Shown here: positions 9,672 through 36,005 of the stretch, in pieces
How the letters are laid out: every line of letters starts with the position of its first letter
Numbering within the stretch: the first letter of the stretch is position 1
IMG/VR virus record: IMGVR_UViG_3300036826_000291
Coordinates: 1-52,751 of that record
Source of the DNA: a virus
DNA: 52,751 nucleotides
Direction: 5' to 3' (one strand)
Position numbers and translations under genes: made by a program
Notes under the pieces: generated by a model
Database searches by the model: none
What the model was told of the DNA's origin: nothing
The model's input: the letters and a program-made list of their open reading frames with translations, nothing else

Positions 9672-10238
9672 TCACCTTTGGCATTGCGCAAGCCCTTGCA
9701 GCAATTCCACGGTCGAATGCGTTGCCTCGCGCACGCTGCCGTGGACCTCGTGCCACAGGCCGTCATCGAAAAAGCGCGGCGCGAACAGCGTGAAGGCGTC
9801 GGTCGCCGAGTAGCGGATCAGCGCCGCAACACCTTCCTCGGCGCGGCGCGCCAGATAGGCGCGCAACGCCGGATCGCGGTGCGCATCGCGATAACGCGGG
9901 TCAACCCACACCTGCACCACCTCGATATGGCGCGTCTCGCCGGTGCGGTCGTCGCGCGCCACGATGAAATCCGGCATCACGTCGATGACGTAGTGAGCCC
10001 GGTCGGGGCGCGAGAGATCGGCGGTGTCGGCGTTGCCGAGCCAGCGGCAGGACCACAGCGCGCACGACATCGGCATGTCCGGCCGGCGATAGACCGCGCA
10101 GCCGCGGCCGACGCGCTGGTGCTTGCAGCGTTGGTTGGCGCCCTTGCCGAGTTCGCGCACCGGCAAAAGCTTGCAGCACAGCGTGCATTCGCCACAGTGT
10201 CGGTTCGGCCCGCCTAGTCGCGGTCGCGCGTCAGCCAT
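9672..10238 (-). CDS. YkgJ-type Cys-cluster (zinc/iron-chelating domain) protein
   Basis: A 188-residue protein. The N-terminus has Cys-Gly-Glu-Cys-Thr-Leu-Cys-Cys-Lys, then Cys-Lys-His and Gly-Cys-Ala-Val-Tyr, then Met-Ser-Cys-Ala-Leu-Trp-Ser-Cys. This is the hallmark cluster of YkgJ/UPF0153 proteins, thought to hold zinc or iron. The C-terminal half is a phage-specific extension with no recognised motif. It starts inside the 3' end of the DUF3846 gene (25-bp overlap). The biological role is unknown. Confidence 0.72.
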   Translation of the reverse strand: MADARPRLGGPNRHCGECTLCCKLLPVRELGKGANQRCKHQRVGRGCAVYRRPDMPMSCALWSCRWLGNADTADLSRPDRAHYVIDVMPDFIVARDDRTGETRHIEVVQVWVDPRYRDAHRDPALRAYLARRAEEGVAALIRYSATDAFTLFAPRFFDDGLWHEVHGSVREATHSTVELLQGLAQCQR

Positions 10239-11874: not shown

Positions 11875-13002
11875 TTAGTCGATCACCCGCAGGTGCGAAC
11901 CGCGCTTCGGCGTTGGCGCCGGCGTCTCGGCCTCAAGCGCCGCGTCCCAAAGGTTGACCACACGCTGATTGATGGCGCGCTGCTCGGCGGCCTTGGCGTA
12001 ATATTCCGCCATCGCGTTCGAGAGATGCCCGGTCACCGATTTGATGCCGGCGGTCCCGACCAGCAAGCCGGCGACATCGACCGCCGCATTCTTGCGCAGG
12101 CCGTGCATCGTCAACCCGTCAAATGTCTTGCCGAGCCGGCGCAATTCGCGGCTGATTGCCATGCTCAACACGCGCGCGCTGGCATAGGGTCGCCCATAGG
12201 CATTGACCAGGATCGTCTCGGCCGTGCGCGGGGCGGCGTCGAGCGCCTCGCGCAGCGGCTTCGGGCACAGGTGATAATTGGCGATCTCCATTGCTTCGCC
12301 CTTGCCCTTCTCGGGCCGCACCAGCAGGCCGCGGCCGTCATAGTCCGCCCATGTCATCTTCACGCTGTCGCCGCCGCGCTGCGCGCCGAAATGCAGCAGC
12401 AGCTTCGCCAGCCGAAGATTGGCCGGCACCGCCGCCATGAACTTGCGCTGCGCCTCGGCGCTCCACGGCCGATGCGGGCGCTTGACCTTGTAATGGCGCT
12501 TGGCATCGAGCGTCGGATCGGGCCGGCCCTTGATGGCAAACTGCGGATGCTTTTTTGCGGCGCCCCAGATCAGCGACAGCAGGCTCACGCGCAGGTCGGC
12601 GGCGGCGGGCCCGCGCTCTTTGGCGACAAGCTCGCTGTAGATGTCGACCGCATCGACGTCGAGGTCGCCGAGCCGGCCGGCGCCGAGATCGGCGTGGATC
12701 ATGTTCAGCACGCCGTTGTAGCTGATGCGGGTGCGCGGGCGCAGCTTGATGAAATCGGTCGACGCGACATAGTTGGAGATCGCGGCTGCCACCGAATCGG
12801 TGCCGGGCGAGGCGCGCACCACCTTCGCGGGGCGGGGAGGTGCGAGCGCCTTGATGCAGGCATCATAGGCGCGTTTGAATTCGGCGCTGCGCTCGTCGCT
12901 CGGCAGCGGAATGGTCTTGCCACCGGGACGGCGAAAGTAGACGTAGGTCGTCGTCTTATCGCGGCCGAACTTGCGGTAAAGGTATTTGCTGCGGTCCGTC
13001 AT
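11875..13002 (-). CDS. int: Tyrosine-family integrase
   Basis: A 375-residue site-specific recombinase that inserts the prophage. The N-terminal about 60 residues resemble an arm-binding domain, a SAM-like core-binding domain follows (about 70-160), and the catalytic domain carries Arg209 (Gln-Arg-Gly-Gly-Asp), a beta-strand Lys near 232, His300-x-x-Arg303, His326 (Thr-Gly-His) and Tyr334/Tyr335. The whole set is present, so it should be active. GGGGGG before the ATG gives a ribosome site. The upstream HTH gene ends 15 bp away and is probably co-transcribed from a promoter at 13242-13270. Confidence 0.93.
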   Translation of the reverse strand: MTDRSKYLYRKFGRDKTTTYVYFRRPGGKTIPLPSDERSAEFKRAYDACIKALAPPRPAKVVRASPGTDSVAAAISNYVASTDFIKLRPRTRISYNGVLNMIHADLGAGRLGDLDVDAVDIYSELVAKERGPAAADLRVSLLSLIWGAAKKHPQFAIKGRPDPTLDAKRHYKVKRPHRPWSAEAQRKFMAAVPANLRLAKLLLHFGAQRGGDSVKMTWADYDGRGLLVRPEKGKGEAMEIANYHLCPKPLREALDAAPRTAETILVNAYGRPYASARVLSMAISRELRRLGKTFDGLTMHGLRKNAAVDVAGLLVGTAGIKSVTGHLSNAMAEYYAKAAEQRAINQRVVNLWDAALEAETPAPTPKRGSHLRVID

Positions 13003-15500: not shown

Positions 15501-15832
15501 GCGTCATCCTCGATTCTGATCGGCGAAATCGAGAGCGCGGTGAGCGGACGATTGGGCTTGCCGTCGGCGCGCAGCGGCCGCAGCGTGCTTTGTGTGCGCC
15601 ATGCTTGAAGCGCGGCCTCAAGCGAGGGAAAGCGCATCGCCTTGGCGACGTCCGGCGAACTGGTGAAATAGCCGATGCCGCCGAACGCATTGACATCGAA
15701 GGCGACGATATATTCGCCGTCGATCACGCGATCGGCGAGCATCGCGCCGGCCGCCTTGACCGCATCGGTCACCGGCCGCTCGCCCTCGCCGGCGACATGG
15801 AATTGTCGCAAGACCCAAGCCATGACGATCAC
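15497..15832 (-). CDS. Small early protein, unknown
   Basis: A 111-residue protein starting at GTG 15832 (overlapping the recT stop, GTGA) or, three codons later, at ATG 15823; no strong ribosome site distinguishes them. It has strands Glu-Tyr-Ile-Val-Ala-Phe-Asp and Ile-Gly-Tyr-Phe-Thr and no recognised motif. It sits directly after recT and is likely translated with it. Confidence 0.5.
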   Translation of the reverse strand: MIVMAWVLRQFHVAGEGERPVTDAVKAAGAMLADRVIDGEYIVAFDVNAFGGIGYFTSSPDVAKAMRFPSLEAALQAWRTQSTLRPLRADGKPNRPLTALSISPIRIEDDA

Positions 15833-16704
15833 GCGGCGTTGTCGGGTTGCACGTCATCGGGCGGTGGCGGCTCCGGTTGCGTCGGTGGCGGCTCCTGTTG
15901 CGCGCCGCCGAAATGGTCGAGCGCGCCCATCACGCCGCCGGTGACAAGCTCGCGCTCGTGCTGCCGCTCGCTCGGCACCTGATCAAAGGCACCGTCGTCA
16001 TCGTCGCGGCGCATCAGGTGATCGAGGTCGTCGCTCGACGCCGGCAATCGCTTGTGCAGATTGCGCAGCACAGTCTTCAGCGCCGCTTCCTCCCACCATT
16101 GGCCCCACATCGGGCCGTCCTTGGCGCGGCTGATCGCGCGGCGCTTCTCGATGTCGGCGGCCGACATGACCTTGATCATCACGCCGCCGTCCTTGGTCTC
16201 GGCCATGGCATAGGCTTTGATCACCTTGCCGCCGCCATCGCCGGGCGAGTGGTAGAGGTGCTCGCCGTGCTCGTCCTTCCAGTATTTGAATTCCTCGCCC
16301 TCGCGCACCACGTCGACCGACACCGATTTGAACTGACCGCTGTTGCGGAATCGCTTCAACAGGCCGCCGACCATCGGCATCCACACCGCAATCTGCTGAC
16401 GGTAGGTGGGCGATTTCGGACTATTGTCGGCAAAGGCGACGATGGTGCCCTCGCGGCCGTCCGGCAACAGGCCGTCGTTGGCGGCGCGCATGCAGGCGTT
16501 GAAAAACGTCTGGCGATTGACGGCGATAAGGTCGACGTTCAAGGCGCAGGCGGTCATCACCACGCGCACGAATTTTTCCGGCGGCATGTGCGCGGGCAGC
16601 GCCATGCGGAATTCGTCGAGGCGGCTGTGCAGCTGCTCGCGCAGCGCCACCATGGGATGAATGGTCGGTTGCTGTTTCGCTCCCGCCTTGGTCGTGGTCG
16701 CCAT
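15829..16704 (-). CDS. recT: RecT-family single-strand annealing protein
   Basis: A 291-residue recombinase that anneals complementary single strands after exonuclease resection. The start is ATG 16704, preceded by GGAGG; upstream in-frame codons fall in the pentamer tract. Family marks are Pro-Pro-Glu-Lys-Phe-Val-Arg-Val near residue 41, Asn-Asp-Gly-Leu-Leu-Pro-Asp-Gly-Arg-Glu near 76, Trp-Met-Pro-Met-Val-Gly-Gly-Leu near 107 and Gly-Pro-Met-Trp near 194, plus an acidic/Pro-rich disordered tail. It pairs with the YqaJ-type exonuclease at 18475, two genes upstream in the same operon. Confidence 0.92.
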   Translation of the reverse strand: MATTTKAGAKQQPTIHPMVALREQLHSRLDEFRMALPAHMPPEKFVRVVMTACALNVDLIAVNRQTFFNACMRAANDGLLPDGREGTIVAFADNSPKSPTYRQQIAVWMPMVGGLLKRFRNSGQFKSVSVDVVREGEEFKYWKDEHGEHLYHSPGDGGGKVIKAYAMAETKDGGVMIKVMSAADIEKRRAISRAKDGPMWGQWWEEAALKTVLRNLHKRLPASSDDLDHLMRRDDDDGAFDQVPSERQHERELVTGGVMGALDHFGGAQQEPPPTQPEPPPPDDVQPDNAA

Positions 16705-16744
16705 TTGCGTTTTCCTCCGCGATTGAAGGGGAAGGGGGTTTACC

Positions 16745-17140
16745 CCTTCCCCGATTTGCCGGCCTTGCCGGGCCGCGCCATGCGATGATCCGACTTGCCA
16801 ACCGAGCCAAGCCAAACCCCGCCCGGCCTCGCCGGCCTCGCCGCGCAAAACCGGGCAATGCAACGCAATGCAACCCTAGCCAAGCCTCGCCGAGCGATGC
16901 CGAGCGATGCCGCGCCGGCCGCGCGCTGCAACGCCGCGCCGTGCTCAACGCTGACAAGCGCGCCGAGCCCTGCCGGCCTTGCTCTGCCCGGCCTAGCCCG
17001 GCCGTGCTCTGCAACACCGTGACGCGCACCGCCGAGCACTGCACCGCCTTGCCGGCCTTGCCTCGCCAAGCCATGCTCGGCCGTGCCTTGCTACGCACCG
17101 CCTCGCCACGCCCCGCCATGCCATGACAAGCCAGACCGGG
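16745..17140 (-). repeat. GGCNN pentanucleotide-phased tract upstream of recT
   Basis: About 400 bp between the 17173 gene and recT in which, on the transcribed (minus) strand, GGC or near-GGC recurs about every five bases with the other two positions varying, for example GGCAT-GGCGG-GGCGT-GGCGA-GGCGG near 17100-17130. There are occasional phase slips of one base and a few TAG stops. It is not a simple tandem repeat, because the units differ. It is open in several frames merely because the pattern avoids stops, and I see no protein-like sequence. It forms the 5' leader of recT. Confidence 0.8.
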
Positions 17141-18474: not shown

Positions 18475-19398
18475 TTAAGCCGCTTCCTCGTCGCGGCGCT
18501 TGTCGATGATGCGCAATATGCGCAAATTTTTTTCCGGCACGGTGTATTGCGGGCGATGCTGCGTTTTCCATGTGATTGAAAAATCCGGCACCAGCGCGCG
18601 CTCGGCCTCGCCCATGCGCGCCATCAGCAGCGTTTCGATCTGCTTGCAGCGCGCTTCGGCTTTGCTGATCTGCTCCTTGAGGTCGGCGCGCTCAATCAGC
18701 CCGGAGACAATCGCGTTATCAAAGCGCAAGTCGGCCACCTGCTCGGCCGTTTCCTTCGGCCACAAGAGCGGCAGCAGCTCGCGATCGAGCCCGTAATCGG
18801 CATCGGGCTCGCGCCCGGCGGCGAGGTCTTGCCAGAACCGCGCGACCGCATCGCGGATGCGCTGCTCCGCACCGGCATGGCGCGCCACCTCGTACAGCGG
18901 ACATTCGAGATTGAATGGGTCAACGACAAGGGCGGCGACCACGCCGAACGCGGCATCGGTCAGCAGCAGCTCGGTGAGGTTCTGCAGCACGATCCAGAAC
19001 GGCGGATTGTCCGCGGTCCATTCGCGCTTGAAGACCGACGGCGCGACGGTCTTGCATTGCAGGACGCCGAGGCCGCGCGCGTCGCCATGCACGAAATAGT
19101 CGGGCGTCGCGCCGAGCCGCAAATCCGGGTCATAGAAATACTCGCTGCATTTTTCGAGCCGCCAATCCGGCCGCTGCTCCGCAACGGCAGCTGCTACGCT
19201 CGACTCCAAGAGCTTGCCGCGCCGCAGCACCGCGCTTGCCGGTGCCGGCAGTTCGATGCCGCGCTTCTCCATGTAGAGCCGCAGCGCCGAGCAATAGGGA
19301 TGAACACCAACCGTCGCCGCGACATTCGATGCCGTCACATGCTCGGGCCGCTTGGGATGCAGTTTGCCGTCCTCGACCGGCTCGCGGATCACTGGCAT
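18475..19398 (-). CDS. YqaJ-type viral recombinase exonuclease
   Basis: A 307-residue nuclease expected to resect double-stranded ends for RecT. The start ATG 19398 overlaps the previous gene's stop region; a longer frame to 19473 lies inside that gene. PD-(D/E)xK marks include Leu-Gly-Ala-Thr-Pro-Asp-Tyr near residue 90 and Leu-Gln-Cys-Lys-Thr near 113. The usual Glu before the Lys is Gln, as I believe is seen in some related phage enzymes, so activity is likely but not certain. The C-terminal half has a coiled-coil helix and Thr-Trp-Lys-Thr. It lies upstream of recT in the same operon. Confidence 0.8.
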   Translation of the reverse strand: MPVIREPVEDGKLHPKRPEHVTASNVAATVGVHPYCSALRLYMEKRGIELPAPASAVLRRGKLLESSVAAAVAEQRPDWRLEKCSEYFYDPDLRLGATPDYFVHGDARGLGVLQCKTVAPSVFKREWTADNPPFWIVLQNLTELLLTDAAFGVVAALVVDPFNLECPLYEVARHAGAEQRIRDAVARFWQDLAAGREPDADYGLDRELLPLLWPKETAEQVADLRFDNAIVSGLIERADLKEQISKAEARCKQIETLLMARMGEAERALVPDFSITWKTQHRPQYTVPEKNLRILRIIDKRRDEEAA

Positions 19399-20246
19399 GG
19401 CGCTCGCTCCCGCTCCGGCGGAACGACAACATAGCGGCTCCGCTTGATGCCAAGCGAACCGTCGCCGGCCCAATAGTCAGCGATCAGCGTCCAGATGCCG
19501 TGAATGCGGCGCTTGTGCGCGCGCGTCCAATGCAGCGCCTTGGTGCCGGTGGTTCCGATTCTTTCGCTGTCGCCGTCTACGATCACCGTCTCGGTCGACA
19601 GCAAAATTTCGGTCCAGGCTTGCAACGGAAAAATGCCGAGTATCTTGCGGCGCGCAAGGACTTCGCGGGCAAGGCCACGATGCGGATCGTGGACTTTGCG
19701 GCCGATAACTTTGGGCGTGTTGATCAGCAGCAGGAAGGCGTAGAGCCGCCACAGCATCGCTGGCACTTCATAGGGCTCGACATGCGAACCGTCAGTATTC
19801 TGGAGCCGGTAGTTTAGAGTTTCTCGAAATATTGCGTGCTCTATCGTGTTCCAGGTCAACGGGCCGGTCTTCGCGAGCGAATTGCTCAGCGCCATAACGC
19901 CGATGCGCCCGCCGAGAAAATTCGGGCCTGTCCGCGCAGCACAATAGACGGTAGCCCATTCTTGGCCTCCACCTTGGCGGACAAGCATGAACCCGATGCG
20001 CTCGCCGTTCTTGTCGTCGAATTCAATCCACGTCCTTGCAGCAGGAAGGAACGACCACTCGACCGAAGGGAAGGCAGCGACAAGCATCTGGTCAAGAATC
20101 GCGCCGGCGGCGTCATAGATTTGCGTGACCTCGAAGCAATGGAATTCTTCGCGAAACTGCGGCAGCAATCCGCCGCGATCTTGGAACGTCCGCCGTTTCA
20201 CCGGCAGCGTCATGTCCTTGACGATGCGATAGGCGAGCGGTGTCAT
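19389..20246 (-). CDS. Conserved rhizobial-phage protein, unknown
   Basis: A 285-residue protein with somewhat lower GC than its neighbours. Conserved-looking segments are a central His-Ala-Ile-Phe-Arg-Glu and, at the C-terminus, Arg-Ile-His-Gly-Ile-Trp-Thr and Leu-Gly-Ile-Lys-Arg-Ser-Arg-Tyr, a signature I associate with rhizobial prophage proteins. The function is not known. It is the second gene of the leftward early operon, overlaps the previous stop (ATGA) and runs 10 bp into the exonuclease gene. Confidence 0.55.
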   Translation of the reverse strand: MTPLAYRIVKDMTLPVKRRTFQDRGGLLPQFREEFHCFEVTQIYDAAGAILDQMLVAAFPSVEWSFLPAARTWIEFDDKNGERIGFMLVRQGGGQEWATVYCAARTGPNFLGGRIGVMALSNSLAKTGPLTWNTIEHAIFRETLNYRLQNTDGSHVEPYEVPAMLWRLYAFLLLINTPKVIGRKVHDPHRGLAREVLARRKILGIFPLQAWTEILLSTETVIVDGDSERIGTTGTKALHWTRAHKRRIHGIWTLIADYWAGDGSLGIKRSRYVVVPPERERAPCQ

Positions 20247-22707: not shown

Positions 22708-23145
22708 ATGAAGTGGAAAGGAGAAACTACCGAACAATTATGCGGCTATCTGGCGCGCGGCCTGAGCCTCGCGCAGATCGCCGCGGCGTTCTCGATAAGC
22801 CGCAGCGCGGTTGCCGGCGCGGTGTTCCGGCTGGACAAGCAGCCGCCGCGACCGCGGCAACCGCCGCGCCCGCGCGCCGAGCCATTACGCCGGCGGCCAC
22901 GGCCGCGGGTGCTGCCCGACCGCCTGTCATTCCGTTCGGCGCCGGCCATGCGGGCGCAGCCGGCGCCGCCGCCGCCGCCGGCGGCAGCGCCGCGCATGAT
23001 CGAGCTGGTGGAGCTGACCGCGGACACCTGCCATTGGCCCTACGGCGACAATGCGCCGTTCCGCTTTTGCGGCGCTGCGACCGACGACGGGCGGCCGTAT
23101 TGCGCGGCGCACGCGCAGGAAAGCGTGCGGTGCGGTCATGCGTGA
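22708..23145 (+). CDS. gcrA: GcrA-family cell-cycle regulator
   Basis: A 145-residue homologue of GcrA, the alphaproteobacterial sigma-70 cofactor that acts at methylated promoters. The N-terminal HTH-type segment (Gly-Leu-Ser-Leu-Ala-Gln-Ile-Ala-Ala-Ala-Phe then Ser-Arg-Ser-Ala-Val-Ala-Gly) and the C-terminal signature (Asp-Thr-Cys-His-Trp-Pro-Tyr-Gly-Asp, then Phe-Cys-Gly-Ala, then Tyr-Cys-Ala-Ala-His) are both present, joined by a Pro/Arg-rich linker. The final few residues differ from typical GcrA. It follows the methyltransferase by 12 bp and overlaps the TSCPD gene by 8 bp. Confidence 0.85.
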   Translation: MKWKGETTEQLCGYLARGLSLAQIAAAFSISRSAVAGAVFRLDKQPPRPRQPPRPRAEPLRRRPRPRVLPDRLSFRSAPAMRAQPAPPPPPAAAPRMIELVELTADTCHWPYGDNAPFRFCGAATDDGRPYCAAHAQESVRCGHA

Positions 23146-24380: not shown

Positions 24381-24914
24381 ATGCCGATGATCCTGGCGCT
24401 CGACCTTGCCAGCAGGAGCGGATGGGCGCTCGGCGCGGCCGGCGAGACGCCGCGGTCCGGCTCGGTCAGCTTCGCGCGGGCAGAGCACAGCATGGCGGCG
24501 CACTTCGTCGGCTGTCGGCAATGGCTGACCGATTTCGTCGCGGTCAACAATCCGCGCATCGTCGTCTTCGAGGCGCCGCTTGCGCCGTCATACGTCGCCG
24601 GCCGCACCAACACCGACACCGTGCGCAAGTTGATGGGGCTGACGGCAATCGTCGAGGAAGCACTTTACGGCAAGGGTTTTGACGTGCGCGAGGCGCCCGT
24701 TTCAAAGGTGCGCGAATTCTTTCTCGGCACCGCGCACTTGAAGCGTCGCGAGGCCAAGCAGGCGACCAAGCATCGGTGCGTCGAGCTTGGCTGGCGGCCG
24801 TGCGACGACAACGCCGCCGATGCGCTCGCGCTGTGGGCCTACATGGTCGGCATCGTCGCGCCGGCGCACGGATTGAAGCTCCTGCCGCTGTTCGGACGCG
24901 AGGTGCGCGCATGA
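24381..24914 (+). CDS. RuvC-like Holliday-junction resolvase
   Basis: A 177-residue nuclease of the RNase H fold. Ile-Leu-Ala-Leu-Asp8-Leu-Ala-Ser-Arg-Ser-Gly-Trp, Val-Val-Phe-Glu64-Ala-Pro and Cys-Asp-Asp-Asn-Ala-Ala-Asp147-Ala-Leu-Ala carry the four acidic positions (Asp8, Glu64, Asp143, Asp147) of RuvC-type enzymes. It would resolve branched DNA during replication or packaging. It is divergent from brnT across a 41-bp gap that holds the brnTA operator, and no good ribosome site is visible before its ATG. Confidence 0.85.
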   Translation: MPMILALDLASRSGWALGAAGETPRSGSVSFARAEHSMAAHFVGCRQWLTDFVAVNNPRIVVFEAPLAPSYVAGRTNTDTVRKLMGLTAIVEEALYGKGFDVREAPVSKVREFFLGTAHLKRREAKQATKHRCVELGWRPCDDNAADALALWAYMVGIVAPAHGLKLLPLFGREVRA

Positions 24915-25660
24915 TGTTCTTTGTCGGCCTGCACTTCCCGCATCACGCCAAGCATTTCGCGCGCGCCTGCATCTCGATCAAGCAGCTGCGCCGCCGGCAG
25001 AAGCCGTTGGGCGCGACCGAGATCATCATCGACAGCGGCGCATTCAGCGAGATTTCCCTGCACGGCGAATTCAAGACGCCGGTTGAGCAATATGCCAGCG
25101 AGCTTGCGCGGCTTGCCGGCATCGCCAACATCGCGATCGCGGTCGCGCAGGATTTCATGTGCGAGCCGCCGATGCTTTTACGCACGGGTTTGAGCATTGC
25201 CGAGCACCAGCGCAGAACCATCGAACGCTACGACGCGCTTCTCGCGCACTCGCCGGTTCGGATCATGCCGGTGCTGCAAGGATGGTCGCCGGACGACTAC
25301 CGCCGCCATCTTGCCGGCTACGGCGACCGGCTAACCTTCGGACAGTGGGTCGGCGTCGGCACCTTGTGCAAGCGCAACGGCGCGCCGGAGCGCATCGTCG
25401 ACATTCTTTGTGCCATCCGCCGCGAGCGCCCGGACCTGCGGCTGCACGGCTTCGGCATCAAGGCGACGGCGCTGCGCCATCCGGCCGTGCGCGAGCTGCT
25501 CTATTCCGCCGATTCGATGGCCTGGTCATTCGCGGCGCGCAAGCAAGGCCGCGACAGCAACGACTGGCGCGAGGCGCACGCGTTCGCCGAGCGCGTCCAG
25601 CAGATTGCCGCATTGCCGATGACAGCATGGCAGATTCCGTTGCCGTTGGAGCGCGCATGA
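24911..25660 (+). CDS. DpdA-like deazaguanine DNA transglycosylase family protein
   Basis: A 249-residue TGT-like protein starting Met-Met-Phe-Phe-Val-Gly-Leu-His. Marks are Ile-Ile-Ile-Asp41-Ser-Gly-Ala-Phe-Ser-Glu-Ile, Ala-Val-Ala-Gln-Asp81, Ile-Met-Pro-Val-Leu-Gln-Gly, Trp-Val-Gly-Val-Gly and Ser-Ala-Asp201-Ser-Met-Ala-Trp-Ser. This arrangement is that of phage and island DpdA, which swaps guanine in DNA for a 7-deazaguanine (preQ0-type) base. No queC/queD/queE/folE gene was found in the genome, so the base would have to come from the host queuosine pathway. It overlaps both neighbours by four bases. Confidence 0.72.
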   Translation: MMFFVGLHFPHHAKHFARACISIKQLRRRQKPLGATEIIIDSGAFSEISLHGEFKTPVEQYASELARLAGIANIAIAVAQDFMCEPPMLLRTGLSIAEHQRRTIERYDALLAHSPVRIMPVLQGWSPDDYRRHLAGYGDRLTFGQWVGVGTLCKRNGAPERIVDILCAIRRERPDLRLHGFGIKATALRHPAVRELLYSADSMAWSFAARKQGRDSNDWREAHAFAERVQQIAALPMTAWQIPLPLERA

Positions 25661-30841: not shown

Positions 30842-31483
30842 ATGATGGCGGCGAACTTCCGCGACCGCATCGTTGAACTGCGGCGCATCAAGGCCGGCGA
30901 GCTGCGGGCGCATGCCAAGAACTGGCGGCTGCACCCGGAAGGCCAGCGCAGCGCGCTCACCGCGATGCTCGCCGACATCGGCTTTGTCGGCGCGCTCATC
31001 GCCCGGCAGGTCGACGGGCATCTCGAGCTGCTCGACGGACACCTGCGCGCCGACCTCGCGGCCGACAGCGAGGTGCCGGTGCTCGTGGTCGATCTGACCG
31101 ACGATGAAGCAGCCAAGGTGCTCGCCACCTATGATCCGCTGTCGGCGCTCGCCGTCACCAACGCCGAGGCGCTTGCCGATCTGCTCAAGGGTGTCGAACT
31201 CGACGAACATGCCGAGTTGCGGCGCATGATCGCCGACCTCACCGTCAAGCTCGAACGCAAAGAGACCGAAGGCCCGGACGACCGCATCGACGTCCCCGGC
31301 ATGGAGCTGCAGCCGCACGAGCACTACGATTTCCTCGTGGTGCTCGCCACGACAACGCACGAATGGAACGTGCTGTGCGATCGCCTCGCACTCAAACCGG
31401 AGAAGCGGCGCGGACGCATGGGCACCTGCCGCGCGATCCGCGCCGAGGCGCTGCTCAAGCTGCTGCCGGCATCGGCAAAATGA
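30842..31483 (+). CDS. ParB-like nuclease-domain protein
   Basis: A 213-residue protein. The N-terminal half contains Ala-His-Ala-Lys-Asn-Trp-Arg-Leu-His-Pro, then Gly-Phe-Val-Gly-Ala-Leu-Ile and Leu-Leu-Asp-Gly-His-Leu-Arg-Ala, the ParB/sulfiredoxin-like fold with its Asp-Gly-His-x-Arg box. The C-terminal part is phage-specific. In phages such proteins often accompany DNA-modifying enzymes. It starts Met-Met at 30842, overlaps the glycosyltransferase gene (ATGA), and its job is unknown: DNA nicking, CTP-dependent binding or regulation are all possible. Confidence 0.72.
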   Translation: MMAANFRDRIVELRRIKAGELRAHAKNWRLHPEGQRSALTAMLADIGFVGALIARQVDGHLELLDGHLRADLAADSEVPVLVVDLTDDEAAKVLATYDPLSALAVTNAEALADLLKGVELDEHAELRRMIADLTVKLERKETEGPDDRIDVPGMELQPHEHYDFLVVLATTTHEWNVLCDRLALKPEKRRGRMGTCRAIRAEALLKLLPASAK

Positions 31484-32244
31484 TCGACTACCGAATCGTG
31501 GTGCCGTCACGCGGCCGGCCGGGCAACGTCGCAAAGCTGTTGTCGTTGATGCCGAGCGCCTGCATCTGTGTCGATCAACGCGAGCGCGCCGACTACGCCG
31601 CGGTGGTGCCGAAGAAGCAGCTGCTCTTGCATCCGCCGTCGAGCGGCGGCCCGGCCGCACGCAACTGGATCATCGAGAACGTCAAGGCAACTTGCCTCAT
31701 CCAGTGCGACGACGACCTGAGCGGCGTGCGCTCGACCATCGGCAGCCGGCGCTTTCTCACCGACCCTGACGAGGTGATGGCGGTTCTTGAGAACGCCATG
31801 ACCGCCTGCCACGATCTCGGCCTGACGACGTTCTGCTTTTCGCGCACCATCAATACGACCGTGATTCATCCAGAGCTGCGGCCGATCGTGCCGGTGCAGC
31901 AGGTCTATGGCTGTTGGGGCGTGATGGGCGCGGCGCGGCATCGGCTCTACGACACGACGTTAAAGAGCCGCGCCGATCTCGATTGGAGCTTGGCGACCTT
32001 GCTGCACGACCGTTGCGTCTATGCCGATGTGCGTTTCTATTTCGACTTCGGCTCGTCATTCAGCGGCGCCGGCGGCAACTCCGGGCTGGTCACGGCCGAC
32101 GACTTCAAGACCTCGACCGAGATTGTCGCGAAGCGGTGGGGTCGCGCGATCTCGTTCAAGCGACCCGGCTATCACAAGGGCGGCGGCGACACCGTTGCCG
32201 GCAAGCCCGACGTGCGCCGCAGCAACCGGCTGGCGCAGCGGTGA
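31480..32244 (+). CDS. Glycosyltransferase-like protein (GT-A fold; TET-associated-type)
   Basis: A 254-residue protein. Tyr-Arg-Ile-Val-Val-Pro-Ser-Arg-Gly-Arg at residues 4-13, Cys-Val-Asp-Gln-Arg-Glu at 30-35, Leu-Leu-Leu-His-Pro-Pro at 48-53, Ala-Arg-Asn-Trp-Ile-Ile at 60-65 and Gln-Cys-Asp-Asp-Asp at 75-79 resemble the phage glycosyltransferases found with TET/JBP dioxygenases that glycosylate modified bases. No TET-type gene was recognised in this genome. It is flanked by a ParB-like gene and a sulfotransferase-like gene in a coupled trio. The substrate, DNA or a surface glycan, is unknown. Confidence 0.6.
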   Translation: MIDYRIVVPSRGRPGNVAKLLSLMPSACICVDQRERADYAAVVPKKQLLLHPPSSGGPAARNWIIENVKATCLIQCDDDLSGVRSTIGSRRFLTDPDEVMAVLENAMTACHDLGLTTFCFSRTINTTVIHPELRPIVPVQQVYGCWGVMGAARHRLYDTTLKSRADLDWSLATLLHDRCVYADVRFYFDFGSSFSGAGGNSGLVTADDFKTSTEIVAKRWGRAISFKRPGYHKGGGDTVAGKPDVRRSNRLAQR

Positions 32245-32864
32245 TGGCCTTCATCACCGAAAAGACGCTGTTCATTCACGTGCAGAAGACCGGCGGCATG
32301 ACGGTGCGCCGCGTGCTCTACCGCGCAACGCCGCTCGGCCGCGAGAGCGGCGACGCCGAAGGCGAGCGGCATATCGGACTGCCGCAGTTGCGCGCCAGCC
32401 ATCCCGGCATCGAGGCCGGCCGGCTTTCGTTCGGCTTCGTGCGGCATCCGGTGTCGTGGATCGTCTCGCGATGGGCGTTCGCCGTGGTGACCGGCTTCCC
32501 GATGCAGATGCAGCACCGCGGCAGCGCCGCCGCGCTGTGGCTCGCCGCATGCTGGCATGATCGCTTCGAGGAATTCGCCGCCCGCACGCTCGACCGCTAT
32601 CCCGGCATCGCCACGCAGACCATGTTCAGCATGCTCGGAATGTGGTCCGGCAAGAGCGTCGACCGCATCGGCAAGACGGAAAATCTGATCGGCGACCTGA
32701 CCGCAATCCTCGACGCCGCCGGCGAGCACTACACGCTCGACAATGATTGCTGGCGCAACGGCACCGACCGGACGATCCGCGACGCGGTGATCGTCTCAGA
32801 CAAGCTAAAGGCGCGCATCATGCGCGCCGAAAGCCAGCTGTGCGAACGGTTCGGCTACGAGTGA
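32244..32864 (+). CDS. Sulfotransferase-like protein
   Basis: A 206-residue protein with the 5'-phosphosulfate-binding-loop-like sequence Phe-Ile-His-Val-Gln-Lys-Thr-Gly-Gly-Met-Thr at residues 10-20 and the 3'-phosphate-binding-type Phe-Val-Arg-His-Pro-Val-Ser-Trp-Ile-Val-Ser-Arg-Trp near 65-77, as in PAPS-dependent sulfotransferases. Members of this fold also include some kinases, so activity is inferred. It overlaps the glycosyltransferase stop by one base (TGATG), indicating a joint role, perhaps sulfation of a glycosylated product. It is the last gene of the rightward operon. Confidence 0.7.
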   Translation: MAFITEKTLFIHVQKTGGMTVRRVLYRATPLGRESGDAEGERHIGLPQLRASHPGIEAGRLSFGFVRHPVSWIVSRWAFAVVTGFPMQMQHRGSAAALWLAACWHDRFEEFAARTLDRYPGIATQTMFSMLGMWSGKSVDRIGKTENLIGDLTAILDAAGEHYTLDNDCWRNGTDRTIRDAVIVSDKLKARIMRAESQLCERFGYE

Positions 32865-33064
32865 GGCTCGACGCGACGCAGCCGGTCATCGAGCCGCAGC
32901 ACGAAGCGCGTCAGAATGTCGAGGTCATGGCGCATGTCGGCAATGTCGGCGGCGACCTGCCCGAGACGCTCGCCGAATGGATCGAACCGCTCGTGCAAGG
33001 CACGAACCTCGCCCTGGATCGCGGCGAGGCGCTCGGCAATGAATTCAAGACTTGGCTCGGGCAT
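32855..33064 (-). CDS. Small coiled-coil protein, last gene of leftward accessory operon
   Basis: A 69-residue, almost fully helical protein with heptad repeats (Ile-Ala-Glu-Arg-Leu-Ala-Ala-Ile-Gln, Leu-Arg-Leu-Asp-Asp-Arg-Leu). Its stop overlaps the sulfotransferase stop by 10 bp on the other strand. It starts within the 3' end of the upstream gene (20-bp overlap). Not recognised. Confidence 0.5.
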   Translation of the reverse strand: MPEPSLEFIAERLAAIQGEVRALHERFDPFGERLGQVAADIADMRHDLDILTRFVLRLDDRLRRVEPHS

Positions 33065-33638
33065 TGTTCGCTCCCTCTTTCAGCGCCCAGAGCCGATAGG
33101 CTTCATCCTCATAGGCATCCTTGCCGCCGGCCTGCGGCGGGTCGAGCTTGGCGCTCTCGGCGCGAAAGTAGGCGATGCCGCGGCCCTTGGCCTTGCCGAC
33201 AATGGTGTGCTGATCGTTCGCCCAATCGGGAATCGCCGGGGCGAAATCTTCCAAGAGCGAGCGCAGCCCGATCGCCGCGCCGAAGTGGCAGCCCTCGCGC
33301 GACTTGGGCGCGCGGCACAGGAGCCGGATGGCGTTGCCGACCATCAGCCGCGCCTCGCCGGGATTGTCCGGCGACTTGGCATATCGCTGTTTCGACTGCT
33401 CGACGGCGGCGGCGACGAACGGCACGATCCACGGCGCGGCGATGCAGTCGACGTCTTCGTGGGCGATGACTTCGAGCCGATTGCACACCATCGAATGAAA
33501 GGCTTTCGAGGTGTGCATCAGTTCGCAGGCCATCTCCATCGCCTCGCGTTCCAGGCCGCGGCGGATGAATTTCTGCATCGCCGAGACGCAGCCCATGGCG
33601 GGGAGATTGTTTCTGGTCGGTGGAATCGGCATCGGCAT
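33045..33638 (-). CDS. Protein resembling the C-terminal region of RarA/MgsA-type proteins
   Basis: A 197-residue protein. Gln-Lys-Phe-Ile-Arg-Arg-Gly-Leu-Glu-Arg-Glu-Ala near residue 22, Ala-Cys-Glu-Leu-Met-His-Thr-Ser-Lys-Ala-Phe near 37 and Asn-Arg-Leu-Glu-Val-Ile-Ala-His-Glu-Asp near 53 resemble the helical C-terminal region of RarA (replication-associated recombination protein), found alone in rhizobial phages. The ATPase part of RarA is absent. It could act as a decoy or adaptor for host replication-repair machinery, an inference from similarity only. It has the AAGGGACCAA box upstream. Confidence 0.5.
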   Translation of the reverse strand: MPMPIPPTRNNLPAMGCVSAMQKFIRRGLEREAMEMACELMHTSKAFHSMVCNRLEVIAHEDVDCIAAPWIVPFVAAAVEQSKQRYAKSPDNPGEARLMVGNAIRLLCRAPKSREGCHFGAAIGLRSLLEDFAPAIPDWANDQHTIVGKAKGRGIAYFRAESAKLDPPQAGGKDAYEDEAYRLWALKEGANNARAKS

Positions 33639-33754: not shown

Positions 33755-34108
33755 TTAGTGCGCGGTCCGGCGCCGCGAACGGGCCGGCGCCACTTCGGCG
33801 ACCGGCGTAGCTTCGGCTTCCGGCAGCAGCTCGGCGGCCGGCTCGGCGACCGGCAGCGGCAGCGGCGCGGGGATGGTGACGCCGGCCGCAGCAAGTGCCG
33901 CGCTCACCGCCTCGAATGTGTCGGCGACCGCGAAGCCGCCGCCATCGGTGAAGGTGAGCCGGGTGCCGACGCGGCCACCCTTGCGCCGGTAATAGGTGCG
34001 GATGGCCTCGACCTGCACGACGGCCGGCACGGTCGATTCGATCGCGACGCCGGACTCGTTCTCGTCATAGGCTTCGCGGTCAACCATGTTCAAAGTGATG
34101 GTCCTCAT
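33755..34108 (-). CDS. Small protein of the accessory operon, unknown
   Basis: A 117-residue protein with Met-Arg-Thr-Ile-Thr-Leu-Asn at the start, then Val-Glu-Ala-Ile-Arg-Thr-Tyr-Tyr-Arg-Arg-Lys-Gly and Gly-Thr-Arg-Leu-Thr-Phe, then a Pro/Ala/Glu-rich disordered tail. It overlaps the cyclotransferase stop by four bases (ATGA), so they are coupled. No family recognised. Confidence 0.5.
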   Translation of the reverse strand: MRTITLNMVDREAYDENESGVAIESTVPAVVQVEAIRTYYRRKGGRVGTRLTFTDGGGFAVADTFEAVSAALAAAGVTIPAPLPLPVAEPAAELLPEAEATPVAEVAPARSRRRTAH

Positions 34109-34680
34109 TTTGACTTGCTCCGATTGTGCCCCGTGGGGCGCTTGCTGGCGGCCTGTTTCCCGGTGGCAGCCTTCCCGGTCTTAGCCGGCGGAACCGCCGC
34201 CGGTAATGCAAGACGCTTGTAGCCGTCACGGTGACGGCGGCGGCGCTCGAAATAAGTCTTGTCCTTGTCGGCCCAGGCGTGCCGTACCGCGTCTTCAAGC
34301 GGCGCGACGTCAAGGTCGAAATCCCGATAGCCTTCGATGATCGTCTGCAGATAGCTTTCGGTCGGCGGCATGATGCCGGTCGAATTCATCACGTACAGCA
34401 TCAACTGGTATTCGTCGCCGGCGCCGATCACCGGCAAGTGGACCTTGCGGTAAAGCCCGGCCGCGATGCCTTCGTAGCGATCGAGCGCGCGCTCGCACGC
34501 CGCGGTGATCTTCCAGATGCCGCCGGGGCACTCGGCGCCCGGTTCCTCGATGCAGTCGGCGACGCCGCGAAAGACAAGCCGCCAGTCCGGCAGCGTGAAG
34601 CTCGCGAGCGGCTTGGCCTGCGGACAGCGGTACGCCATGTGCGCGCGATTGAGATTGGAGCCGTAAGCGAAATAGAGCAT
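34105..34680 (-). CDS. Gamma-glutamylcyclotransferase-like protein
   Basis: A 191-residue protein of the GGCT/AIG2 fold. It opens Met-Leu-Tyr-Phe-Ala-Tyr-Gly-Ser-Asn-Leu, the family signature, and the acidic catalytic position is in Asp-Arg-Tyr-Glu-Gly near residue 70. The C-terminal 40 residues are Lys/Ala-rich and probably disordered. Members release 5-oxoproline from gamma-glutamyl amines. Together with the amidoligase two genes upstream it could trim or recycle a gamma-linked peptide; that partnership is inferred. AGAGGGACCA lies directly before its ATG. Confidence 0.82.
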   Translation of the reverse strand: MLYFAYGSNLNRAHMAYRCPQAKPLASFTLPDWRLVFRGVADCIEEPGAECPGGIWKITAACERALDRYEGIAAGLYRKVHLPVIGAGDEYQLMLYVMNSTGIMPPTESYLQTIIEGYRDFDLDVAPLEDAVRHAWADKDKTYFERRRRHRDGYKRLALPAAVPPAKTGKAATGKQAASKRPTGHNRSKSK

Positions 34681-34976: not shown

Positions 34977-36005
34977 TCATCGCCGCAACTCCGCTTGCCG
35001 GCGATTGAGGAATTCCGCTTCCGCATCGGCGGCCTCGATCAGCGCGACGAATGCCGGAAGGTCGATCGGCGTGTCCTGCCCCGCATCGGCGACCGCATAG
35101 AAGCGGTCAACGCCGCGGCTGCGCACGACCGTGACTTGAATGCCGGCGAGCCGCGCCTGCCGGTTGACCGACAATGCCGCCCAATCGGTGCCGGCGATGA
35201 TCTCGGAGCGGGTCGCGCCCTCCGGGCGGCAGATCATTTCGGCGGTGCGGCGAGTCTTGCTGTCGCGCAGATGATCGAAGCTTGTCGGCCGCGGTGCGCG
35301 CTGCATGCCGGTCTTGCCGGCCTTGGCGGCGGCGACCATGCGGAGGCAGCACTTGATCCAATTGGTCGCCTTTTCCGCGTCGATGGTTCCGGCGTGCTGG
35401 CGAAACTCGACCGTCGAATGTTTCTGGAACGCGGTCAGGTTCAGCTTGAAAAATCGCTGGTGATAGGCGGGCCCGCGTCCCGTGGCGCGAATGCCGGTTT
35501 GCGCCTCGACCAACTGCGCGAAGCTCGCCGCGGAATCGACCGCCGGAAGATTGGCGCTCGCGAGCGAACGGCAATAGACGTTGGTCCCGCCGCGACGCGA
35601 GGCCGGCATTAGGCCGTCAATGACCGGCTCAAACTTCGCGTAAAGCTTTACGAGATTCTTGAAGAACGCGAGATCGCCGCCGCGCGCACCGACGTGAACG
35701 TGAAAGCCGCATGACTGATTGACGCTGGCGCCGATGGCGGTAAGCGCGCGGCACATCGTCTCGACTTGCGCGAGGCCGTCGGCGCCCTGCAAGATCGGCG
35801 ACACAAGCTCGCCGCCGAAACCGGTGCCGCGCACGGAGCCGTCATGAACGATTTTCCAGGCGGTGACGCCGGCGTGAGTCGGCGCGAGTCGGTCGCCGAC
35901 GTTGACCGCGATGCCGGTTTGCGCCGAAAGCTCGCGTGCGGCGTTGGAATGCGGCGCCGGAAAGATAACCTCGAATTCAACGCCGAAGGTGAAAGCCGGA
36001 AGCAT
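34977..36005 (-). CDS. Amidoligase-family enzyme with C-terminal DUF3489-like region
   Basis: A 342-residue protein. The catalytic-domain marks are Phe-Gly-Val-Glu-Phe-Glu at residues 7-12, Gly-Gly-Glu-Leu-Val-Ser-Pro-Ile near 64-71 and Ser-Cys-Gly-Phe-His-Val-His-Val near 97-104. They belong to the amidoligase (glutamine-synthetase-like) family that joins carboxyl and amino groups. After about residue 255, Ile-Cys-Arg-Pro-Glu-Gly-Ala-Thr and Gly-Thr-Asp-Trp-Ala-Ala-Leu-Ser-Val-Asn resemble the DUF3489 winged-helix module, an unusual fusion. Substrate unknown. Box AGAGGGACCAA and a clear promoter lie upstream. Confidence 0.8.
   Translation of the reverse strand: MLPAFTFGVEFEVIFPAPHSNAARELSAQTGIAVNVGDRLAPTHAGVTAWKIVHDGSVRGTGFGGELVSPILQGADGLAQVETMCRALTAIGASVNQSCGFHVHVGARGGDLAFFKNLVKLYAKFEPVIDGLMPASRRGGTNVYCRSLASANLPAVDSAASFAQLVEAQTGIRATGRGPAYHQRFFKLNLTAFQKHSTVEFRQHAGTIDAEKATNWIKCCLRMVAAAKAGKTGMQRAPRPTSFDHLRDSKTRRTAEMICRPEGATRSEIIAGTDWAALSVNRQARLAGIQVTVVRSRGVDRFYAVADAGQDTPIDLPAFVALIEAADAEAEFLNRRQAELRR

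Follow-up and report, generated by a model that had tools for sequence, protein, structure and literature searches.

The window analysed here is the whole 52,751-nt virus record IMGVR_UViG_3300036826_000291 of the IMG/VR database (positions 1 to 52,751), and our subject is a cassette of three overlapping genes within it, encoding a ParB-like protein, a glycosyltransferase of the TET-associated family (TAGT) and a sulfotransferase-like protein with motifs of the type that binds 3'-phosphoadenosine-5'-phosphosulfate (PAPS). At related viral loci, designated below by L numbers, TAGT genes are repeatedly linked to genes for sulfur-bearing sugars. The three genes are as follows.

30842..31483, + strand: ParB-like protein, 213 amino acids (profiles of PHROG families for ParB and DNA methyltransferases; profile match to the Spo0J structure 1vz0; alignment of 15 sequences)
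31480..32244, + strand: TAGT-family (PF20691) glycosyltransferase with a GT-A fold, 254 amino acids (Pfam score, structure model and DDD motif)
32244..32864, + strand: sulfotransferase-like protein with PAPS-type motifs, 206 amino acids (motifs in 6 relatives; PHROG 3347; PF03567 below its cut-off)

The ParB-like gene begins with the ATG at 30842 and its stop codon ends at 31483, overlapping by 4 bp (ATGA) the glycosyltransferase gene, the ATG of which lies at 31480; the stop codon of the latter ends at 32244, where the ATG of the sulfotransferase-like gene begins, giving an overlap of 1 bp (TGATG). An earlier note on this DNA had described three genes with overlaps of 1-4 bp, encoding a ParB-like protein, a glycosyltransferase of the TET-associated kind and a sulfotransferase with both PAPS-type motifs, and had proposed to check the second product for a GT-A fold. 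Its coordinates and overlaps (4 and 1 bp) were correct, and the comparisons below agree with its first two assignments and, less firmly, with the third.

Comparison of the window genes with their orthologues in L002, L013, L014 and L019 gave ratios of nonsynonymous to synonymous differences (pN/pS) of 0.29-0.58 in 12 of 12 cases, indicating that the three genes are under purifying selection and are not chance reading frames. The order of the genes is kept in these four loci and in L026, and the surroundings of the cassette, which in the window are a replication region, vary among loci. By hydropathy, all three proteins lack a membrane-like segment, the Kyte-Doolittle mean over 19 residues reaching 1.47 at most.

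Products of the three genes

We found that the glycosyltransferase matches the TAGT family PF20691 with 33.8 bits, above the Pfam cut-off of 27.5, and that 16 of the 17 aligned members match TAGT at an E value of 0.01, some of them under the cut-off. A structure model based on 16 sequences, with a mean predicted local distance difference test score (pLDDT) of 81.6 and a predicted template modelling score of 0.82, has the GT-A fold. Specifically, its matches in the PDB were GT-A enzymes (best Foldseek E value 7.7e-9; Z about 15 over ~200 residues), protein and teichoic-acid transferases among them; its matches among viral models were proteins named TET-associated glycosyltransferase; and it matched the beta-glucosyl-hydroxymethylcytosine (HMC)-alpha-glucosyltransferase of Klebsiella phage PKO111 with an E value of 1.3e-9. 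An acidic DDD motif, at residues 77-79, is invariant or nearly so in 17 sequences. In addition, the beta-glucosyl-HMC-alpha-glucosyltransferase of phage T6 is itself a TAGT by PF20691 (35.8 bits, above the cut-off). With the window glycosyltransferase as query, no match was found in 50,697 phage records; the profile of its alignment found none in genome contigs, and sequence searches of the PDB with the glycosyltransferase and the sulfotransferases returned just chance-looking matches. A genome search with PF20691 overlooked the window, G013, G017 and Microbacterium phage Gina, all of which have a TAGT relative by alignment, and the misses of this search were therefore not counted. The TAGT family takes its name from an association with TET/JBP oxygenases and was reportedly named in a paper of 2013. 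A solitary TAGT of undefined role occurs in 288 of 753 genomes, according to the available part of PMC13216743, and the window-type TAGT looks like this solitary sort.

The ParB-like protein matched no Pfam family and was recognized by PHROG families of ParB and DNA methyltransferases (1.5e-9 to 5e-7). Profile searches matched it to the Spo0J structure 1vz0 (E value 9.4e-6) and to 6sdk (3.3e-5), both by way of an N-terminal ParB domain. These matches, examined for the central DNA-binding domain and CTP switch of a full partition protein, stop by profile position 121 of 212; in the alignment of 15 sequences, the remainder is a different, small C-terminal domain that recurs in ParB proteins adjoining TAGT genes. 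In L035, L037, L038 and L039 the ParB domain and a DNA methylase share one open reading frame (ORF), and in numerous phage records the domain carries a DNA-methylase annotation. This association agrees with the available part of PMC12783734, in which the role of the ParB domain in DNA modification is stated to be unknown.

The third product, which we call sulfotransferase-like because its PF03567 score lies under the cut-off, is the weakest identification of the three. It matched PHROG 3347 (galactose-3-O-sulfotransferase) with 1.3e-3, and two relatives did so with 1.2e-4 and 3.4e-9, the latter being that of L026. Its PAPS-type motifs, K15-T16-G17-G18 and R67...S75 (8 residues apart), are invariant in six sequences and occupy positions that we take to be those of the 5'-phosphosulfate- and 3'-phosphate-binding sites. 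The sulfotransferases of the window and L026, used as queries, had no match in the 50,697 phage records.

Sulfur genes at related loci

Scanning with the alignment of the glycosyltransferase yielded 6 loci, and with that of ParB 31. After removal of duplicates of the window, L002 and L003, and of L015 and L016, which gave identities equal to those of L014, the count of distinct ParB-TAGT loci was 17 (the window, L002, L003, L008, L010, L011, L013, L014, L017, L018, L019, L022, L023, L024, L026, L036 and L040). ParB is present at all 17, in cut contigs by its C-terminal part only. Taking the loci from the glycosyltransferase and ParB queries together, a sulfur gene was found in the TAGT cluster at 13 of the 17: the window-type sulfotransferase at six (the window, L002, L013, L014, L019 and L026), a second sulfotransferase-like family at five (L003, L008, L010, L018 and L023) and a UDP-sulfoquinovose synthase (UDP, uridine diphosphate) at two (L017 and L036). 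The sulfur gene is mostly directly adjacent, lying behind a mutase gene in L003 and L018, and overlaps of 1-4 bp occur at this slot in the window, L002, L017 and L036. The mutase, a UDP-galactopyranose mutase, is encoded in L003 (209.8 bits), L018 and L022.

The second sulfotransferase-like family (L003 type) has the motif NSGSTW and a clear P-loop-like motif; the spacing of its 3'-phosphate motif is non-canonical and its Pfam score is under the cut-off. The synthase of L036 matched SQD1 (PDB 1qrr), an enzyme that elsewhere serves sulfolipid synthesis, over its full length with 305 bits, and that of L017 is 63% identical to it; in both loci the gene overlaps the TAGT gene by 4 bp. The window has no SQD1-type gene, and the SQD1 of L036 as query had no match in the 50,697 phage records.

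Genes that could supply PAPS were also present. L025 encodes a complete standalone adenosine-5'-phosphosulfate (APS) kinase (PDB 5cb6, E value 2e-45), L003 an APS-kinase-like domain (52 bits) fused to a nucleotidyltransferase, and L073 a window-type sulfotransferase followed by a fused protein 72% identical to that of L003; in a genome-wide search, APS kinase exceeded its cut-off in 2 of 19 records. We considered that the fused protein of L003 might serve another group transfer. Because L025 has a complete standalone APS kinase, PAPS is the simpler reading, though a more tentative one for the L003 protein itself. The earlier note had proposed a joint sugar-plus-sulfate pathway, and this proposal is now much stronger than it was from the window alone, since relatives carry APS kinase, UDP-galactopyranose mutase and UDP-sulfoquinovose synthase in the cassette slot. 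Judging from this gene content, handling of a sulfo-sugar is very probably part of what the cassette does.

The linkage was also seen from the sulfur side. Used as queries, the two sulfotransferase families gave 9 records each. TAGT and ParB adjoin the gene in 8 records of either set; the exceptions are L073, with only 85 bp of contig upstream of the gene, and L025, where ParB is present and TAGT is not. L083, L084 and L087 are new loci from these queries and were not included among the 17; the sulfotransferase gene of L087 lies on the strand opposite to TAGT and ParB, yet is adjacent. At L025 (5467-7563) the ParB-like gene is followed by genes for a second-family sulfotransferase and the complete APS kinase, with no TAGT on the 13.5-kb contig; the virus may have lost the sugar step or encode it elsewhere. 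No TAGT was nearby at 15 of the 31 ParB loci. One of these is L025; the other 14 have either a distant ParB or the N-terminal ParB domain, and in four of the 14 ParB shares an ORF with a methylase. A search with the SQD1 pair gave five loci, three of which (L090, L091 and L092) have no ParB or TAGT by the profiles used, suggesting that the SQD1-type enzyme also serves other viral pathways. In L090 (1499-8779), for example, the SQD1-like synthase lies among several genes that by eye resemble those of sulfotransferases and glycosyltransferases, possibly another sulfated-glycan cluster.

Proposed pathway and the acceptor of the sugar

As an explanation of the whole cassette, we put the probability that it places a sulfur-bearing, charged sugar on phage DNA at roughly one half (about 0.52). 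With a nucleotide sugar as donor, TAGT would glycosylate phage DNA, during or after replication; the ParB-like protein would bring TAGT to the DNA or pick the sites; and the sulfotransferase would then sulfate the transferred sugar with PAPS supplied by the host or, in relatives with their own APS kinase, by the phage. In the SQD1 version, UDP-sulfoquinovose would be made first and the ready sulfonated sugar transferred, and some relatives would add a supply of UDP-galactofuranose. The charged sugar would guard the DNA from host nucleases. The more general proposal, that some tailed phages decorate their DNA bases with a sulfated or sulfonated sugar through a ParB-TAGT pair needing neither hydroxymethylase nor TET, and that two sulfotransferase families and a UDP-sulfoquinovose synthase were recruited to one slot to reach a common charged product, is put forward more tentatively, at a little under even odds.

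That DNA is the acceptor seems to us rather probable. We infer this from the kinship of the TAGT with the T6 enzyme, which adds glucose onto already glucosylated HMC (available parts of PMC13216743 and PMC13390438), and from the ParB domain, which is found fused to methylases, and not from the operon. The earlier note had held that an operon containing DpdA and methyltransferase-like genes favours DNA. This argument fails because these genes are not conserved with the cassette, DpdA exceeding its cut-off in 1 of 23 records, which is the window, and N6/N4 methylase being found in 2 of 20, although its conclusion may still hold. A deazaguanine made by DpdA was considered as the acceptor and dropped on the same ground.

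Besides the scarcity of DpdA and methylase, several results weigh against a sulfur-bearing sugar on DNA. The tested families, searched in a set of records many of which are fragments, yielded no enzyme known to make a hydroxyl handle, and the remark in the earlier note that no base oxidase was recognised holds for these families. Specifically, the thymidylate-synthase/deoxycytidine monophosphate (dCMP)-hydroxymethylase family (PF00303) was found in none of 23 records and in none of another 4, the complete Gina genome among these, the T6 control being positive; AlkB-type oxygenase and type 3 2-oxoglutarate-Fe(II) oxygenase were each found in 0 of 20, and Tet_JBP in 0 of 23, a search in which no control gave a match. 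The C5-methylase family was found in 2 of 23 records and not in the window, and none of PF00303, PF12851, PF00145, PF13532, PF13640, PF01555 and DpdA accompanies the cassette. These absences are soft because most records are fragments; Gina, however, is complete. In addition, the TAGT profile matched the T6 enzyme with an E value of 0.0028 and a probability of only 10.8; the sulfotransferase-like protein scored 17.4 bits against PF03567, under the cut-off of 22, and its structure model (pLDDT 42.3) was of too low confidence to show a PAPS fold; 4 of the 17 loci (L011, L024, L040 and L022, the contig of the last stopping inside the UDP-galactopyranose mutase gene) have no sulfur gene; and virion-related-looking genes lie close to the cassette in some loci.

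The last observation bears on the main rival explanation, in which the acceptors are proteins, above all those of the virion: a sulfated or otherwise acidic glycan would be built on a phage structural or other protein, the TAGT fold having been reused for proteins and the ParB-like protein being a companion. In L003, L014 and L019 a gene shortly upstream of the cassette looks virion-related by eye, that of L014 matching no Pfam family, and in L024 the cassette lies, again by eye, between tail-like and terminase-like genes. The failure to find a base-hydroxylating enzyme in the tested families would fit a protein acceptor, as would the protein and teichoic-acid transferases among the structural matches and the glycosylation of actinophage capsids, which is discussed in the available parts of the literature. 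We nevertheless consider a protein acceptor unlikely, since the DNA enzyme of T6 belongs to the TAGT family, DNA methylases are linked with the ParB domain elsewhere, and ParB, or its C-terminal part, accompanies TAGT at every one of the 17 loci.

UDP-galactofuranose, sulfoquinovose and sulfation are common at cell surfaces, and the closest sulfotransferase family in PHROG belongs to the moron and host-takeover category, as might be expected if the cassette altered a host surface glycan or lipid with sulfated sugars, for example to exclude other phages. This seems improbable to us, considerably more so than a protein acceptor, because the three proteins lack a membrane-like segment, no lipid-carrier transferase or flippase was noticed by eye in the ORF lists beside the cassettes, and the ParB partner would be hard to account for. 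Least probable, by a small step, is that ParB and TAGT modify DNA and the sulfur genes act elsewhere, the slot merely collecting accessory genes: L011, L024 and L040, with TAGT and no sulfur gene, L025, with the converse, and the SQD1 relatives of the viral contigs L090-L092 would fit such a slot, but three sulfur routes meet in it, with the 1-4 bp overlaps noted above, and both sulfotransferase families adjoin ParB-TAGT in 16 of 18 records.

Neighbouring genes and comparison with known systems

Downstream of the cassette, and on the opposite strand, is a gene for an MgsA_C-like (RarA C-terminal-like) protein, which is present at 19 of the 22 tabulated loci and also in Gina. It is listed here with its counterpart in L065 and with other genes of the window.

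33045..33638, - strand: MgsA_C-like protein (PF12002, 19.4 bits, under the cut-off of 27)
L065, 7549-8169: MgsA_C-like protein
24911-25660, + strand: DpdA family protein (PF23859, 132.8 bits)
34105-34680, - strand: AIG2-like gamma-glutamyl cyclotransferase (44.3 bits), in 7 of 15 clustered genomes
34977-36005, - strand: Amidoligase_2 (125 bits), adjoining the AIG2-like gene, in 6 of 15 clustered genomes
22708-23145, + strand: GcrA cell-cycle regulator (PF07750, 91.4 bits)
9672-10238, - strand: cysteine-rich protein with a CxxCxxCC-like start and no Pfam match, in 4 of 15 clustered genomes
15829-16863, 18475-19473 and 11875-13002, - strand: recombination genes of the RecT and YqaJ types, plus a weak match to phage integrase (22.7 bits against a cut-off of 27.1)

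Given its DpdA gene, the window phage likely has a second, separate DNA modification, and the AIG2-like and Amidoligase_2 pair might make an amide-linked modification of its own. GcrA suggests an alphaproteobacterial host.

A similar gene order was observed in Microbacterium cluster EC phages (Gina, Quhwah and relatives), in which ParB, a TAGT-like glycosyltransferase, a UDP-glucose dehydrogenase and the MgsA_C-like protein follow one another as in the cassette, the first three genes of Gina having 4-bp overlaps. Here the dehydrogenase (central domain PF00984, 60.7 bits) stands in place of the sulfur gene, and the glycosyltransferase is only 23% identical to that of the window. Gina-type glycosyltransferases were found in 56 of the 50,697 phage records, all of them from Microbacterium. 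DNA modification is not mentioned for these phages in the available part of PMC7302621. The versions of the cassette thus differ in sugar chemistry and share an added negative charge, in the form of a sulfate, a sulfonate or, as inferred for the Microbacterium version, a uronic acid.

Among known systems, the di-glucosylation of T-even phages (T6) has a glycosyltransferase family and fold in common with the cassette TAGT. In T6, the dCMP hydroxymethylase gene adjoins the TAGT gene, and there is also an alpha-glucosyltransferase, whereas the hydroxymethylase was not found in the cassette records (0 of 23); the cassette, unlike T6, has the ParB-like protein and sulfur-sugar genes. The arabinosylation of RB69-type phages likewise attaches an unusual sugar by means of a DNA glycosyltransferase (available parts of PMC6024577 and PMC13390438). 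It differs in having no sulfur step and in requiring hydroxylated cytosine that is formed while still a mononucleotide (available part of PMC13390438); no such enzyme of the PF00303 family was found in the 23 records here. In the carboxymethylcytosine pathway (CmoX/CmoY), ParBc proteins lie beside phage DNA hypermodification genes, as here, but that pathway depends on a carboxyl group as the handle and on an AMP-forming ligase (AMP, adenosine monophosphate; available part of PMC12783734), and the C5-methylase is confined to the two records noted above.

Glycosylated phage DNA is already known, and a sulfur-bearing sugar on phage DNA, which we did not find in the open-licence literature, would be a new decoration. 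For solitary TAGTs, the present data offer a concrete and testable chemistry, that of charged sugars, and the ParB-TAGT-dehydrogenase version is carried by cultured Microbacterium phages, in which the acceptor can therefore be tested. If DNA is the acceptor, sulfur-bearing sugars would join the known nucleobase decorations, implying an undiscovered handle on the base, and the ParB domain would gain a second kind of partner besides methylases.

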